From positions 124,001 to 188,000 of the forward strand of contig JAUJOR010000007.1 in NCBI GenBank assembly GCA_030447525.1: a DNA stretch of 64,000 nucleotides, written 5' to 3'. Below are positions 22,824 through 55,448 of the stretch, one piece after another. Source of the stretch: Chloroflexota bacterium (GTDB taxonomy: Bacteria; Chloroflexota; UBA11872; UBA12225). A program made the position numbers and the translations under genes. How positions within the stretch are numbered: the first letter of the stretch is position 1; every line of letters starts with the position of its first letter. The notes beneath the pieces were generated by a model. It worked only from the letters and a program-made list of their open reading frames with translations, was not told the origin of the DNA and did no database searches.

Positions 22824-23105
22824 TCAGACTTGCAAGAAGCCGGGCGAGTCGATGACGAAGACAACGGCGCGGGCCCTCGGGGCCGGGCTATCCTGGCTGG
22901 CCTGGCGGGCCTGACAGTGCTGGCGCAGCGTGGCGACGACGTCGTCCACTTGCTCCGCCTCCACGCCGGCAAGGAGGGTGACGTTGCCACGCCGGAGCAA
23001 CCCGCCGACGGTGTTGATGCGCGTCGTACGGTAGCCTTTCCCGAGCAGGGCCTTGACCGCATTGCCGGCGTCTTCGCTCTGCACGATCGCCCACACGAGC
23101 TTCAT
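22824..23105 (-). CDS. c-di-AMP receptor-like protein (DarA/PstA family, DUF970), first copy
   Basis: 93 aa, PII-like fold. It matches the DarA pattern: MKLVWAIVQSEDAGNAVKALL, then the ligand loop YRTTRINTVGGLLRRGNVTLLAGVE and EQVDDVVATLRQHC, with a C-terminal strand AVVFVIDSPGFLQV. DarA binds cyclic di-AMP in trimers and signals to unknown partners. SD GGAGGA precedes the ATG. It follows its paralogue by 39 bp on the same strand; the B-loop between the Cys and the last strand is short. No c-di-AMP cyclase or phosphodiesterase is in the window. Confidence 0.85.
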   Translation of the reverse strand: MKLVWAIVQSEDAGNAVKALLGKGYRTTRINTVGGLLRRGNVTLLAGVEAEQVDDVVATLRQHCQARQASQDSPAPRARAVVFVIDSPGFLQV

Positions 23106-23144
23106 CGCCCCGTCCTCCTCCGAATGCCTGCCCCGCGACCTGCG

Positions 23145-23516
23145 CTAGAGGCGCTCGAAACGCTCGACGTCGATGACGAAGACCGTGGCCCCACCCACCT
23201 GCACCTGGATTGGATCGAGGGGGTATGGCTCCCCCACCTCGCCCGGGGCGGTGGGGACAAAAAACTCGGTGCGCGTCTCACAGTTGTCACGGATGATCAG
23301 CAGGGCCCGGTGCAGGCGTTGCCGTTCCACGCCGGCGATAATCGTGGCATTCCCTTTGCGCAAGAATCCGCCCACGGTGTTGATGCGCGTGGCGCGAAAG
23401 CCGGCCCCGGTCAAAGACTCGATTACCGGCCCGGCGTCCTCATCCTGGACGATAGCCAGGATGAGCTGCATGTCCGAGGCATCGACTTCTGGCGCTGGAT
23501 CTGACGTTTCAGCCAT
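23145..23516 (-). CDS. c-di-AMP receptor-like protein (DarA/PstA family), second copy
   Basis: About 123 aa from the ATG at 23516 (MAETSDPAPE). The earlier ATG at 23528 overlaps a TATAAT promoter box and is rejected. It has the same core as its neighbour: MQLILAIVQDEDAGPVIESL, FRATRINTVGGFLRKGNATI and IAGVERQRLHRALLIIRDNC. A longer insert (TEFFVPTAPGEVGEPYPLDP) lies before the final strand VQVGGATVFVIDVERFE. That insert sits where PII-like proteins have the partner-contacting loop, so the two copies probably talk to different partners. Confidence 0.85.
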   Translation of the reverse strand: MAETSDPAPEVDASDMQLILAIVQDEDAGPVIESLTGAGFRATRINTVGGFLRKGNATIIAGVERQRLHRALLIIRDNCETRTEFFVPTAPGEVGEPYPLDPIQVQVGGATVFVIDVERFERL

Positions 23517-23526
23517 CAGGGGGGCC

Positions 23527-23532
23527 ATTATA
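23527..23532 (-). promoter_or_regulatory. -10 box just upstream of the second DarA-like gene
   Basis: TATAAT on the minus strand, 10 bases before the ATG at 23516, which gives a leader of only 3-4 bases. It overlaps and so argues against the ATG at 23528. Confidence 0.5.
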
Positions 23533-25817: not shown

Positions 25818-27395
25818 GTGAGCGCTGAGCCGGGTGGGGCTTCGCCACGAGAGGGTCCGGTGCCCTCTGCAGCGGCCCCGGACGTATCTCTACGCCTGCG
25901 GGGCAACGACCTGTTGATCCAGTTTGCCGGCCATGGCCCGCCCGGGGACGACCGTGACCAGGCATTGCGCGCGCAGGTAACGCGTGCAACCGGCCGAGCG
26001 TCCCTGGTCTATGACCGCCGGCTGGGGAGCTATCGCACCCTGGCCTCAGCCTACCGGGCGGTCCGAGAGGGGCTGGAGGCAGACCGCTACCGCGTGGGGA
26101 CGGACTTCGATCCGGCGCCGGCGTTACCGTTCACGCCCCGGCTGTCCCAGGCGCCGCGCCCGTACCAGGAGGCGGCGCTGGAGGCATGGACGGCCGCCGG
26201 GGGCCGGGGGGTTGTCGTCCTCCCTACCGGCGCCGGGAAGACGCTCGTCGCCTTGCTGGCGGTGGCCCGGCAGCGGGTCTGGACCCTGGTAGTGGTGCCC
26301 ACCCTGGACCTCCTGGCCCAGTGGCAGCGAGCGGCGACCGAGCTGCTGGGCGCGCCAGCTGAGAGCGTCGGCGTCTTCGGCGGGGGCAAGCGCGACCTGG
26401 CCCCCATAACGATCATCACCTACGACTCGGCCGCCATCCACACGGGCGACCTGAATTGCTTCGGACTCCTGGTGTTCGACGAGGTGCACCACCTCCCGGC
26501 GTCGTCCTACCGGCTCGCCGCCGAGGGGACGGTGGCGCCTTACCGGCTGGGCTTGTCGGCCACGCCGGAGCGCACTGACGGCCTGGAGCGCGACCTGGCG
26601 CACCTCGTGGGGCAGGTGGTCTATTCCCGATCGCCGGGCGAGTTGGCCCAGCACCTGGCCACCTTTCGCGAGGAAAAGATCACCATCGCCTTGAGCCCGG
26701 ATGAGCAAGGGGCCTACGACGCGGCCATGGCCGGCTACCGCGCCTTTCTGCGCCGCCGGCGCTTGCGCATTACCTCGCCGGAGGACTTTCAGCGCTGGGT
26801 GATCTGGCACAGCGCTAACGATCCGGAAGCCCGAAAGGCCATGCTGGCCCACCGCGAAGCCCGGCGGCTGGCCTTCAACGCAGCCGCCAAGACGGCAGTC
26901 CTGATCCAGCTGCTACAGCGCCACCACGACGAGCGCGTGCTGATCTTCTCGGAGTTCACCGCCGTGGTCGAGGGGCTCAGCCGTGACCTGCTGATCCCTG
27001 CCATCACCTACAAGACCCCCCCTGCGGAGCGTGCCGCCGTCCTGGACGGCTTCCGCAGCGGGCGCTTCACCAAGCTGGCCACCGGCCGGGTGCTGAACGA
27101 GGGCGTCGACGTGCCGGATGCCAGCGTGGCCATCGTCCTCAGTGGGACAGGGACACGCCGGGAATACGTCCAGCGCCTGGGCCGCGTCCTGCGGCCAAAG
27201 GCCGGCCCGGCGGTGCTCTACGAGCTGATCACAGAAGAGACGGGCGAGGTGCACCTTACCCGCCGCCGGCACGCCCGGCCCCGCGGCAGCCGGGGGGCAC
27301 GATCCAGTGACCAGGCAGGCAACGGCGAGGAAGCGCTCAGCACCGAGCGTCATGCGCCGCGCACCTGGGGGGAAGGCAAGGGAGCGGGGCCCTGA
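25818..27395 (+). CDS. XPB-type superfamily 2 DNA helicase
   Basis: 525 aa from the GTG at 25818, the most sensible start, although the frame is open from 25728. A damage-recognition-like N-terminal region of about 110 residues precedes the motor: RPYQEAALEAW (Q-like motif), Walker A LPTGAGKT at 135-142, DEVHH at 221-225, LSATPERTDG from 246, and in domain 2 VLIFSEFTAVVE and motif VI YVQRLGRVLRP. This order and the compact size match archaeal/bacterial XPB, a 3'-5' helicase that opens DNA in repair. A Bax1-type nuclease gene follows after three bases, the known partner of XPB in archaea. Repair by unwinding and incision is the likely joint role. Confidence 0.88.
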   Translation: MSAEPGGASPREGPVPSAAAPDVSLRLRGNDLLIQFAGHGPPGDDRDQALRAQVTRATGRASLVYDRRLGSYRTLASAYRAVREGLEADRYRVGTDFDPAPALPFTPRLSQAPRPYQEAALEAWTAAGGRGVVVLPTGAGKTLVALLAVARQRVWTLVVVPTLDLLAQWQRAATELLGAPAESVGVFGGGKRDLAPITIITYDSAAIHTGDLNCFGLLVFDEVHHLPASSYRLAAEGTVAPYRLGLSATPERTDGLERDLAHLVGQVVYSRSPGELAQHLATFREEKITIALSPDEQGAYDAAMAGYRAFLRRRRLRITSPEDFQRWVIWHSANDPEARKAMLAHREARRLAFNAAAKTAVLIQLLQRHHDERVLIFSEFTAVVEGLSRDLLIPAITYKTPPAERAAVLDGFRSGRFTKLATGRVLNEGVDVPDASVAIVLSGTGTRREYVQRLGRVLRPKAGPAVLYELITEETGEVHLTRRRHARPRGSRGARSSDQAGNGEEALSTERHAPRTWGEGKGAGP

Positions 27396-27398
27396 TTG

Positions 27399-29375
27399 AT
27401 GCCCTTCCCGCTGAGCGACCTCAAGCGCAGCTACGGGCGCAGCGGCGTGGCCGGCGGCCCGCCGGACGTCCGTCCCTACCTCCTGGCGGGGCGGGAGCTC
27501 GCGGCGCAGCGCCGGCGCCTCCTGCTTGTGATCGACTGGCATGCCCGGGGCGTTGGACGCCCGCGACAGGCCTTGGACTTCGACGAACTGGCCCAGTTGG
27601 TCGGAGACTACCGCCTGGCCCGCTGCCTGGGGGCTTGCCTGCAGACCAGTTTCCGCTTCGTTCCGCAGTCCTTCGAAGACGCCGTGGCGGGGGCCGCGCC
27701 GGCCGGCGCCCGGCAGCAGCTGGCCGAGTCCGGCGCCCGCGGGCCGACAGATCTGCGGCTGCGGGTGTTCGAGACCGTCGGCGCCGAGCACGGGGGCTTT
27801 GTGACGGTGGAACAACGCCCCGCTGTGCTGGCCGGAGTGGCCGCCGGCCTGGGGTTGGAGCCAGAGGCGCTGGAGACCTTGCTCTGGCTAGACGCCGAGG
27901 GAAACCATCGCCTGGACGCCGTGGCCCCACTGCCCACACCCGAGGCCCTGGCGGCGGCCTATAACCGCCGGGCGCTGGCCACGCTCCTCGTCCGCTCCAT
28001 GTCCGCCGATCTCATTCTGCCGGCCCCGGATGGGGCGACCATCAGACGCCTCTACCTCATGGTCAAGCGCCATGGGCTACTGTGCGATCTACAGCTCGTT
28101 GAGCCGGCGCGGGGGGCGGCCGGGGGCGTTCACGTCCACCTATTCGGGCCGCTGGAGGTGTTTGGACCCCGCACGCGTCACGGCGATCGCTTCGCCGGCG
28201 TGCTGCTGGGGCTCCTCTACCGTTTTCCAGCCCTGCAAGGTAGCGCCCGCGTCCTGCTCAACGAGCGGGAGTATCGCTTGGGCCTGGGGCCCGACGTGGC
28301 GGTTGCCCTGGGTGGGGAGGACCCACTACACCTCGCTGTGGCCGAGGCAGGTGCCCTGGCCGCCAGTTCCGAGGGCGATGTGGCGCCAGAGGGCCCCGCC
28401 GGGGCCCCTTTGGACGAGCACTCGGCCGGGGCTGTGGCCGCCTCAGGAGGGTTGTCGGCGTCCGCCGGGCCCACGGCGCTGGTCGCCCGCCCGGAAGGGG
28501 GGGAGTCTTTCGACAGCGACGTCGAGGCCCAGCTGTTCGCCACCTTGCGGGGCATGGAGCGGGGCGGCGATGCCGCCGGCTGGACAGTGGAGCGGGAGCC
28601 GGAGCCATTGATCCACGGGACGACGGTGATGGTGCCGGACTTTGCCCTTAGCCGCCCGCCGGCGCGAGGCCGGCCGGGTCGGCGGGTGTACGTCGAGGTG
28701 ATCGGGTTCTGGACGGCAGCTTACCGCGAGCGGAAGCGGGACAAGCTGCGCCAGCTCGCCGGGCAGGCCGACCTGCTACTTATCATCCAGGAGGCCCTGG
28801 CCAGCCACTTCCAGGGGCTACCCTTCCCCATCCTCACGTATAAGCACCGCGTCCCGGCAGGCGACCTGATCCGCCTCCTCAACCGGCTGTATGTCCACTC
28901 CCCGGAGGACGCGGTGGACATGGCAGTGGTGCGCCGGGAGCTGGACACCCTCTTGGAGGCCGTGGATCCCGCCCTGGGACTGCTGCTCGCCGAGGAGCTG
29001 CGCCGGGCGCTGGAGCTGCCCACGACCGCCAGCCTCAGTGCCGTCGTGCAGCGATCGCCCGGGAGCGCCGACGGCGCCGGCGCATCCAGCGGGGCGCCCG
29101 GCCCCGTCGGCGGCTGGCGCTGGCTGCCGGGCGTGGGGATGTACCACCGACGGTGGCTCGACGACCTACGGGCTTGCTGTGCCGCGACGTTCGACACAGG
29201 CGATGGGAACGTCTCGTTGGAGACGCTACGGGAAGCGGTGCGAGCCTCCGGCCTGGCGGCGGCCGAATTGGCCGCCGCGCACCTGGAAGCCCTGTTGCCG
29301 GCGGCGGGGTATGAAGTGGACCGGCAATCCCTTTTCGAGGCCACCGTCCGCCGGCTGAACGCCCCTCCGGCCTGA
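27399..29375 (+). CDS. Bax1-like DUF790 endonuclease, partner of XPB
   Basis: 658 aa from the ATG at 27399, right after the helicase stop; a TTG one codon earlier is also possible. It starts with the DUF790 pattern (LSDLKRSYGRSGVAGGPPDVRPYLL, CLGACLQTSFRFVPQSFE) and contains LVRSMSADLILPAPDGATIRRLYL and HVHLFGPLEVFGPRTRHGDRF. The nuclease core at about residues 405-460 has PDFAL followed by VYVEVIGFWTAAYRERKRDKL, a PD-(D/E)xK-like arrangement of Asp, Glu and Lys seen in Bax1. Compared with archaeal Bax1 it has an inserted low-complexity stretch (about 315-365) and a C-terminal extension. Coupling to XPB supports a helicase-nuclease complex that nicks DNA during excision repair. Confidence 0.85.
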   Translation: MPFPLSDLKRSYGRSGVAGGPPDVRPYLLAGRELAAQRRRLLLVIDWHARGVGRPRQALDFDELAQLVGDYRLARCLGACLQTSFRFVPQSFEDAVAGAAPAGARQQLAESGARGPTDLRLRVFETVGAEHGGFVTVEQRPAVLAGVAAGLGLEPEALETLLWLDAEGNHRLDAVAPLPTPEALAAAYNRRALATLLVRSMSADLILPAPDGATIRRLYLMVKRHGLLCDLQLVEPARGAAGGVHVHLFGPLEVFGPRTRHGDRFAGVLLGLLYRFPALQGSARVLLNEREYRLGLGPDVAVALGGEDPLHLAVAEAGALAASSEGDVAPEGPAGAPLDEHSAGAVAASGGLSASAGPTALVARPEGGESFDSDVEAQLFATLRGMERGGDAAGWTVEREPEPLIHGTTVMVPDFALSRPPARGRPGRRVYVEVIGFWTAAYRERKRDKLRQLAGQADLLLIIQEALASHFQGLPFPILTYKHRVPAGDLIRLLNRLYVHSPEDAVDMAVVRRELDTLLEAVDPALGLLLAEELRRALELPTTASLSAVVQRSPGSADGAGASSGAPGPVGGWRWLPGVGMYHRRWLDDLRACCAATFDTGDGNVSLETLREAVRASGLAAAELAAAHLEALLPAAGYEVDRQSLFEATVRRLNAPPA

Positions 29376-54973: not shown

Positions 54974-55350
54974 ACGCCTCCCCCCGCCGTCTGGGGCCCG
55001 GGGTCCTCTGATGTGGGCGCCGCCGTCCATCACGCCCCCTCGCGTGAGCTCCAGCCGAGCACCACGCCGCCGGCCGCCGTGCACGCCCGGGGCGTGGAAC
55101 GGCTGAGCCCATCTCAAGGACAGCCGAGGTGAAACCCGCATGGGGAGTGTGCCGCCCCCATGTGAGTCCCAGCGTGGGTGAGGAATAGGGCGGATACAAT
55201 CCACAACGTTCCCCTGGAGGCGCGTCCGCCGGATGGCCCGTCCGGTAAACTTTCCGAGCATTCCCCGGTGGACGGGGAGCAAGGGGGCGCCCTGACCCGT
55301 GGGCGGTGGGGGCCGGCGGCACCCGCTGGGCGGGGGTTACCGTTCCCCAG
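54974..55350. other. Intergenic region between pckG and the selenocysteine tRNA
   Basis: No convincing gene. An almost exact short copy of the tRNA lead-in (CGTTCCCCTGGAGGCGCG) lies near 55206, about 135 bases before the true one at 55341. It does not fold as a tRNA. Confidence 0.5.
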
Positions 55351-55448
55351 GGAGGCGCGGCCGGTCCGGTGATCGGCCCGGTCTTCAAAACCGGTGAGTC
55401 GTCGTTCGCGCGGCGATTGGTGGGTTCGACTCCCATGCGCCTCCGCCA
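55351..55448 (+). tRNA. selC: tRNA-Sec (anticodon TCA)
   Basis: 98 bases including an encoded CCA. The 8-bp acceptor stem GGAGGCGC pairs with GCGCCTCC before GCCA. The long D-arm, the anticodon arm CCGGT-CTTCAAA-ACCGG with TCA, the long variable arm and the T-arm TGGG-TTCGACT-CCCA all fit bacterial selenocysteine tRNA. It implies the organism makes selenoproteins, so selA, selB and selD should exist elsewhere; none is in the window and I saw no gene with an internal TGA and SECIS here. tRNA genes, selC in particular, are integration sites for genomic islands, and a recombinase remnant lies 164 bases downstream. Confidence 0.95.

Follow-up and report, generated by a model that had tools for sequence, protein, structure and literature searches.

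A window of 64,000 nucleotides from a Chloroflexota bacterium (assembly GCA_030447525.1, contig JAUJOR010000007.1, positions 124,001 to 188,000 of the forward strand; coordinates below count from the first letter of the window unless a contig is named) carries neighbouring genes for an XPB motor protein and a Bax1-type (DUF790) nuclease. We read the pair, with a probability of about 72%, as a working bacterial XPB-Bax1 helicase-nuclease, likely providing an auxiliary incision route, which has a probably non-cutting sister pair elsewhere in the same genome. The source genome assembly comprises 5.1 Mb in 36 contigs and is 94.7% complete, the window being part of its contig C35. The original prediction, made from the sequence of the window, had placed the two genes three bases apart in a bacterium, and this was borne out by the coordinates and by family matches: the spacer is TTG and both genes share one frame.

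25818-27395, + strand: XPB gene, GTG start at 25818, TGA stop at 27393-27395, 525 amino acids
27399-29375, + strand: Bax1 (DUF790) gene, type B as defined below, ATG start at 27399, stop ending at 29375, 658 amino acids

The window Bax1 scored 153.5 bits against Pfam DUF790 (PF05626, cut-off 28.8) and matched Archaeoglobus fulgidus Bax1 (6p66_B) with a phmmer E-value of 2e-15. The window XPB gave 89 bits with Pfam ResIII and 55 bits with ERCC3_RAD25_C, and A. fulgidus XPB matched its residues 64-490 at E 5e-102. Because of these profile scores and E-values the two identities are not attributable to chance. NCBIfam equivalog families were not reached, XPB scoring 222 bits against repair_heli_XPB (cut-off 610) and Bax1 scoring 81 and 53 bits against two Bax1 families (cut-off 500 each) whose names suggest the Sulfolobus and Archaeoglobus forms.

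Since the match to A. fulgidus and Sulfolobus tokodaii XPB begins at residue 63-64 of the window XPB, its sequence places it not with the mycobacterial type but with the archaeal one, and it has a damage-recognition-like domain and a thumb region. This match ends at residue 485-490, and both elements were covered by the sequence alignment from about residue 63 and by a structural alignment over model residues 19-486. The Pfam damage-recognition domain (DRD) profile, XPB_DRD, gave 22 bits (E 1.7e-4), which is under its cut-off of 26. None of the superfamily 2 (SF2) motifs I, II, V and VI is disrupted. The features of the motor are as follows; the thumb was placed using what we take to be its boundaries in archaeal XPB.

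25875..26129, + strand: damage-recognition-like N-terminal domain, XPB residues ~20-104 (approximate bounds), from the Pfam XPB_DRD match below gathering score and the structural alignment with 6p4f_C
26223..26243, + strand: Walker A, PTGAGKT, XPB residues 136-142
26478..26492, + strand: motif II, DEVHH, XPB residues 221-225
26568..26579, + strand: RED-motif site, residues 251-254, E-R-T-D, with the central Glu replaced
26736..26801, + strand: thumb (ThM)-aligned region, XPB residues 307-328, by alignment to archaeal XPB
27171..27185, + strand: motif VI, QRLGR, XPB residues 452-456
27288..27392, + strand: C-terminal XPB tail, disordered, residues 491-525, predicted local distance difference test score (pLDDT) under 50

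The features of Bax1 follow. Papers are cited here by PubMed Central (PMC) number.

27399..28328, + strand: N-terminal and Cas2-like domains, residues 1-310 (approximate bound), the XPB-binding part by homology, with the interface from PMC7293015
27891..27965, + strand: D165, E167, Y188 and N189, aligned to A. fulgidus D133, E135, Y155 and N156 (XPB interface, proposed N-terminal site)
28344..28499, + strand: disordered low-complexity linker, residues 316-367, between the Cas2-like and nuclease domains
28506..28898, + strand: PD-(D/E)XK nuclease domain, residues 370-500
28524-28526, 28638-28640, 28695-28697 and 28734-28736, + strand: nuclease residues E376, D414, E433 and K446
28857..29372, + strand: C-terminal domain (residues 487-658), modelled as a tandem winged helix

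The Bax1 proteins read fell into three types: type A of about 410-430 amino acids, type B of about 600-780, which includes the window protein, and type C of about 430-580. Catalytic residues described for A. fulgidus Bax1 are E275, D305 and E318 (PMC7293015), equivalent to E376, D414 and E433 of the window Bax1, and these are followed by Lys 446. The nuclease assignment in the original prediction hinged on the PD-(D/E)xK residues, and all four were kept in the window protein and in 28/28 type B rows, as well as in 5/5 type A, 50/50 archaeal and 14/14 other bacterial rows (five of the 14 being Chloroflexota), a set in which rows from L083 onward were collected by a two-pattern scan (R399-E402 and E433-Y442), so that those positions were partly selected for, with E376, D414 and K446 outside both. 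The residue table omitted loci that repeat a protein already included, along with the split L111, and L152 is missing from one row list. At the XPB interface, E167 is variable even within type B.

The low-complexity insert that had been noted in Bax1 is real, a disordered linker at residues 316-367 with pLDDT almost wholly below 50. It is longest in the window protein, and family relatives (L035, L036) have a shorter one at the same site in the alignment. The C-terminal extension had been called untypical of the archaeal form, and this was half right: residues 487-658 are a folded domain (pLDDT 81.6, two winged helices in the model) without profile similarity to the archaeal one, but archaeal Bax1 also has a C-terminal domain at that place (PMC7293015), absent in many archaea (PMC7672443). 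Plain alignment had hinted at homology between the two, which we rejected on profile comparison (probability 0.5%, E 0.13). In the same kind of comparison the window domain did match the C-terminal region of type C (67 columns, 94%, E 1.2e-7). Structurally, the modelled domain came nearest, among the matches listed, to the SelB winged helices in 1lva (Z 9.9, 3.0 Å over 121 residues), a likeness that lies in the winged-helix arrangement and indicates no function. Foldseek with this domain gave no match at E 0.001, and archaeal Bax1 was not among the 50 structural matches listed for it, which is uninformative alone.

The pair was modelled as one chain of 1185 residues, with the TGA between the genes read as Trp and an alignment of 56 other rows, five of them paired. 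The model (pLDDT 83.6; predicted template-modelling score, pTM, 0.73) supports, without demonstrating, a physical XPB-Bax1 complex at the window locus, as the original prediction expects. The XPB half superposed on 6p4f_C, from the XPB-Bax1-fork complex, with a root-mean-square deviation (rmsd) of 2.2 Å over 432 residues (Z 30, target-normalised template-modelling score 0.90), the lowest rmsd among the archaeal XPB chains listed, and Bax1 chains were also among the structural matches of the pair model. Against A. fulgidus 6p66_A and 2fwr the rmsd was about 20 Å, probably due to a different placement of the lobes.

A careful XPB tree was built from 57 of 70 pairs. L093, L138, L144, L049 and L128 were set aside for being long or odd, and eight more for being close to rows that were kept. 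The tree recovered a type B clade (99/96), a type C clade (100/99) and the two joined (100/100), with 22 archaeal rows and one Bipolaricaulota row apart (98/93). The comparison with archaeal XPB-Bax1 that had been proposed as a check thus places the window pair in a bacterial clade outside the archaeal one. A quick tree of all 70 rows gave B 95, C 100 and B+C 86, and a Bax1 tree without the nuclease domain gave B+C 98 and C 97, with B unresolved. As the trees are unrooted they give no direction. A recent import from archaea, which we considered, is not supported, the archaeal rows being separate and B+C forming one group. In the quick tree the row L093, from a bin named Bathyarchaeota with an XPB-Bax1 pair, joined B+C (95) on a long branch; it could reflect transfer or misbinning.

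By sequence, the type B pair of the window and a type C pair on contig C26 are paralogous sister pairs. The latter (G000:C26:53504-56368, where G000 is the source genome; L034 7505-10369) consists of a Bax1 of 517 and an XPB of 434 amino acids, six bases apart. A type C profile at E <1e-100 detected such proteins in 22 of 400 Chloroflexota genomes, in nine families, including two genomes missed by Pfam (G065, G217), and its next-best matches (E 1e-82 or weaker) were type B and A frames. E433 and K446 were gone in all 22 Chloroflexota copies, a count that is partly so by definition, as the rows used to build the profile were eleven nuclease-dead ones, and to that extent it weakens our case. D165 was retained in 22/22 copies and N189 in 21/22, and the figures for E376 (6/22) and D414 (14/22) depend on the alignment, another one that includes eleven of the type C proteins giving 2/11 for Glu376 and 5/11 for Asp414; both alignments agree on the lack of E433 and K446. 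An XPB gene stood beside the type C Bax1 on the same strand in 21 of the 22, the remaining locus being cut by a contig end. Type B was co-resident in seven of these genomes (G000, G322, G100, G156, G172, G286, G258) and type A in one (G084).

Type C is not confined to Chloroflexota. In Armatimonadota, the phylum of an Armatimonadetes bin, DUF790 occurred in 7 of 251 genomes, and four of these were type C by their residues, with XPB adjacent on the same strand; all 26 copies (22 Chloroflexota and four Armatimonadota) lacked E433 and K446 and kept D165. The 294 genomes from the phylum to which a Pirellulaceae bin belongs yielded no type C at E 1e-30, a result to which we give little weight because there was no match of any kind. 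Nine weak matches at E 1e-20 came from 29 genomes belonging to the same phylum as a bin named Crenarchaeota, and the five read all keep the catalytic residues.

The ratio of non-synonymous to synonymous substitution rates (dN/dS) was determined among seven type C sequences, six of them from species of a single genus and the seventh from a relative, where 5 or 6 of the 21 pairs lacked a usable dS. The median was 0.057 for the dead nuclease domain (16/21 pairs) and 0.037 for the N-terminal part (15/21 pairs). By the former value, purifying selection keeps the dead nuclease domain in the one group tested. The type C XPB retained motifs I, II, V and VI in 11/11 rows, with variable middle letters. 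Its helicase domain starts at residue 55-73 with no DRD match (5/5 scanned); the corresponding start in the window XPB and in two relatives from its family is residue 88-113, and there the DRD matches below cut-off. The type C XPB therefore seems to be without a damage-recognition domain, and type C has the look of a DNA-opening machine that has lost its cutter.

By analogy with the archaeal structures, the window XPB would translocate on duplex DNA, with its thumb separating the strands where there is a bubble or fork. The N-terminal and Cas2-like parts of Bax1 would close the ring that encircles the duplex, and cutting of one strand, near the junction, would fall to the nuclease domain. The most likely job of such a machine would be auxiliary incision at distorted or forked DNA, beside UvrABC. 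The sister pair on C26 keeps the motor and the XPB-binding part of Bax1. Its nuclease site is lost, as its damage-recognition domain probably is, and it would most likely open or remodel DNA without cutting it. A more specific and tentative proposal, to which we give somewhat less than even chances, is that type C is an XPB-Bax1 whose nuclease was dismantled yet kept as a scaffold, with an XPB shorn of its damage-recognition domain, dividing labour with type B; it may form a dedicated DNA-opening complex like the XPB module of eukaryotic TFIIH, with the pseudo-Bax1 acting as a regulator or clamp of the motor. The proposal concerns 22 of 400 Chloroflexota and 4 of 251 Armatimonadota genomes, and 7 of the 22 also have type B.

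The repair role of the window pair is something we infer from the archaeal relatives, and the route parallel to UvrABC put forward in the original prediction is plausible. In the source genome two copies of UvrA and one of UvrC passed their cut-offs, and no UvrB over the family cut-off was found in the assembly. Should UvrB be truly lost, XPB-Bax1 could have replaced UvrB-dependent excision repair in the lineage, and UvrB was missing (E 1e-60) from 5 of 56 DUF790-positive genomes vs 10 of 344 others, being found in 385 of the 400 genomes of the phylum. We consider this highly improbable: UvrA and UvrC are present, and the five genomes without UvrB are all drafts of 36 to about 1760 contigs. 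Moreover, a relative (G294) has uvrB immediately upstream of uvrA and the source contig C6 ends about 1 kb upstream of uvrA, and because the contig ends where this synteny puts uvrB the missing gene is likely an assembly gap. UvrB loss as the reason for the pair is accordingly unproven. At the end of C6 (G000:C6, L197) there is a small gene reading like a GIY-YIG protein where G294 has uvrB.

The presence of UvrB in 51 of the 56 DUF790 genomes means that excision repair is already covered in them, and this favours a different job, in which the pair would act as a structure-specific machine on stalled forks, recombination intermediates or R-loops and not in excision repair. Binding to forks and bubbles is documented for the archaeal complex (PMC7672443, PMC7293015), and archaeal mutants are without a clear damage phenotype. 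We regard this alternative as possible though on the unlikely side, and the damage-recognition-like domain kept by the window XPB argues against it.

A number of observations weigh against a working helicase-nuclease with a repair role. The genetics are the first of these: no phenotype is listed for Sulfolobus islandicus bax1, xpb1 and xpb2, and that of Thermococcus kodakarensis xpb is marginal (PMC4471258, PMC7690668), so a repair role is not shown genetically even in archaea. The window protein departs from the RED motif, which PMC3353954 describes as absolutely conserved in XPB: the central Glu is gone and the motif reads R-T-D. This middle residue is variable across types B and C. Ranked by Z, the chains 2fwr_B, 6p4w_A, 5tnu_B and 6p4o_A stand above 6p4f_C as matches of the XPB half. 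In the window's own family the type B nuclease gave a dN/dS of 0.31 (three pairs, dS about 1), which is higher than in type C. A DUF892 gene that precedes the window XPB was not found at the G322 or G294 locus. Coupling of the two genes is not universal either, because 13 of the 39 Chloroflexota Bax1 loci read, themselves a selection from the Pfam DUF790 list, had no close XPB on the same strand: XPB was not near Bax1 on the stretch read in 7, was separated from it by an opposite-strand gene and 2.7-2.9 kb in 5, and lay 1 kb away in 1. In the other 26 it was on the same strand and at most 300 bases upstream, overlaps included.

A further point against the main reading, that the motor scores 163 bits against PbeA of the phosphorothioation-linked PbeABCD system, touches on defence. 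Helicase-nuclease pairs are common in defence, and the pair might be an anti-phage or restriction module whose XPB-like motor loads on invading DNA for the nuclease to cut; the motor also gave 125 bits against the Dnd restriction family TIGR04095 (cut-off 600). We think this improbable, since Bax1 has no match among the PADLOC families at E 0.01, none of the ten window genes scanned with Pfam is a defence gene, the flanks of the pair are common to two other genera of the same family, and type C is found in nine families, the eleven copies in the tree forming one clade that looks vertical. Among those ten genes, a subset of the neighbours, none was PbeBCD or Dnd.

Among known systems, the helicase-nuclease of the window is most usefully compared with archaeal XPB-Bax1 (A. 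fulgidus 6P66, S. tokodaii 6P4O/6P4F; PMC7293015, PMC7672443). It shares with these a motor with a damage-recognition-like domain and thumb region, the N-terminal and nuclease domains of Bax1, catalytic residues included, coupled genes and, for the XPB model, a fit to the fork-complex form at low rmsd. It differs in its bacterial clade, its tandem winged-helix C-terminal domain, its longer disordered linker and its altered RED motif. The mycobacterial-type XPB (PMC3353954) is likewise an XPB motor in a bacterium but, unlike the window XPB, has another N-terminal domain and no thumb. With PbeA of PbeABCD (PMC6459918) the window protein has an XPB-like motor in common, by PADLOC score, but its partner is DUF790 and the scanned genes included no Dnd or Pbe partner. 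From its sequence, then, the window pair is best placed as a bacterial member of XPB-Bax1 with a C-terminal domain of its own.

In the older literature, a 2005 survey gave DUF790 as almost only in Archaea and Cyanobacteria (PMC1189080), a bacterial Bax1 complex was not known to the authors of a 2012 paper (PMC3353954) and a 2014 review called Bax1 archaea-specific (PMC4080772). We found no description of a bacterial XPB-Bax1 complex or of a nuclease-dead Bax1 in a search of literature that left most subscription papers and the original 2008-2010 Bax1 papers outside. Type C is, as judged by its residues, the unusual part, with the cutter lost and the motor and contact residues kept. The cellular role of XPB-Bax1 is unsettled because archaeal mutants show little, and cutting and non-cutting versions in one bacterium allow a direct comparison, in which XPB action can be followed without TFIIH and without a nuclease. 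Conservation of the dead nuclease domain beside the XPB motor suggests that motor regulation may be a distinct role of Bax1.

The XPB-Bax1 pair is not special to the source genome. By Pfam, DUF790 was present in 56 of the 400 Chloroflexota genomes and in other bacteria, and XPB-adjacent DUF790 occurs beyond Chloroflexota, for example in Candidatus Competibacter phosphatis and a Bipolaricaulota bin. The genome scan returned at least 571 relatives, of which 80 were kept. At five loci of Chloroflexota family f21, which includes named Ktedonobacteria records (L038, L040, L046, L047, L068), the intervening gene on the opposite strand spans about 740-880 codons and, from its sequence, reads like a serine/threonine kinase. 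In G357 two frames of 707 codons (C3:127305-127541 and C1:6302518-6302754; L060, L061) match only the first 80 DUF790 positions, and neither XPB nor a full Bax1 was found around them.

Upstream of the window pair lie ThrC-like, two PII-like and two XdhC genes, which are likewise upstream in the relative G322, and downstream lie glycoside hydrolase (GH), ManC-like and phosphodiesterase (PDE) genes, likewise downstream in G294; the names ThrC-like and PII-like were assigned by reading the sequence and not by Pfam. The pair looks to be in a stable chromosomal place. Further along the window, ARAGORN called a selenocysteine tRNA at 55349-55448 (+ strand), where the two scanned upstream genes are a methyltransferase and a phosphoenolpyruvate carboxykinase (PEPCK); selenocysteine genes were not sought. 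The two PII-like genes, at 22824-23528, read as small tandem regulator genes beside the XdhC pair and are kept in G322.

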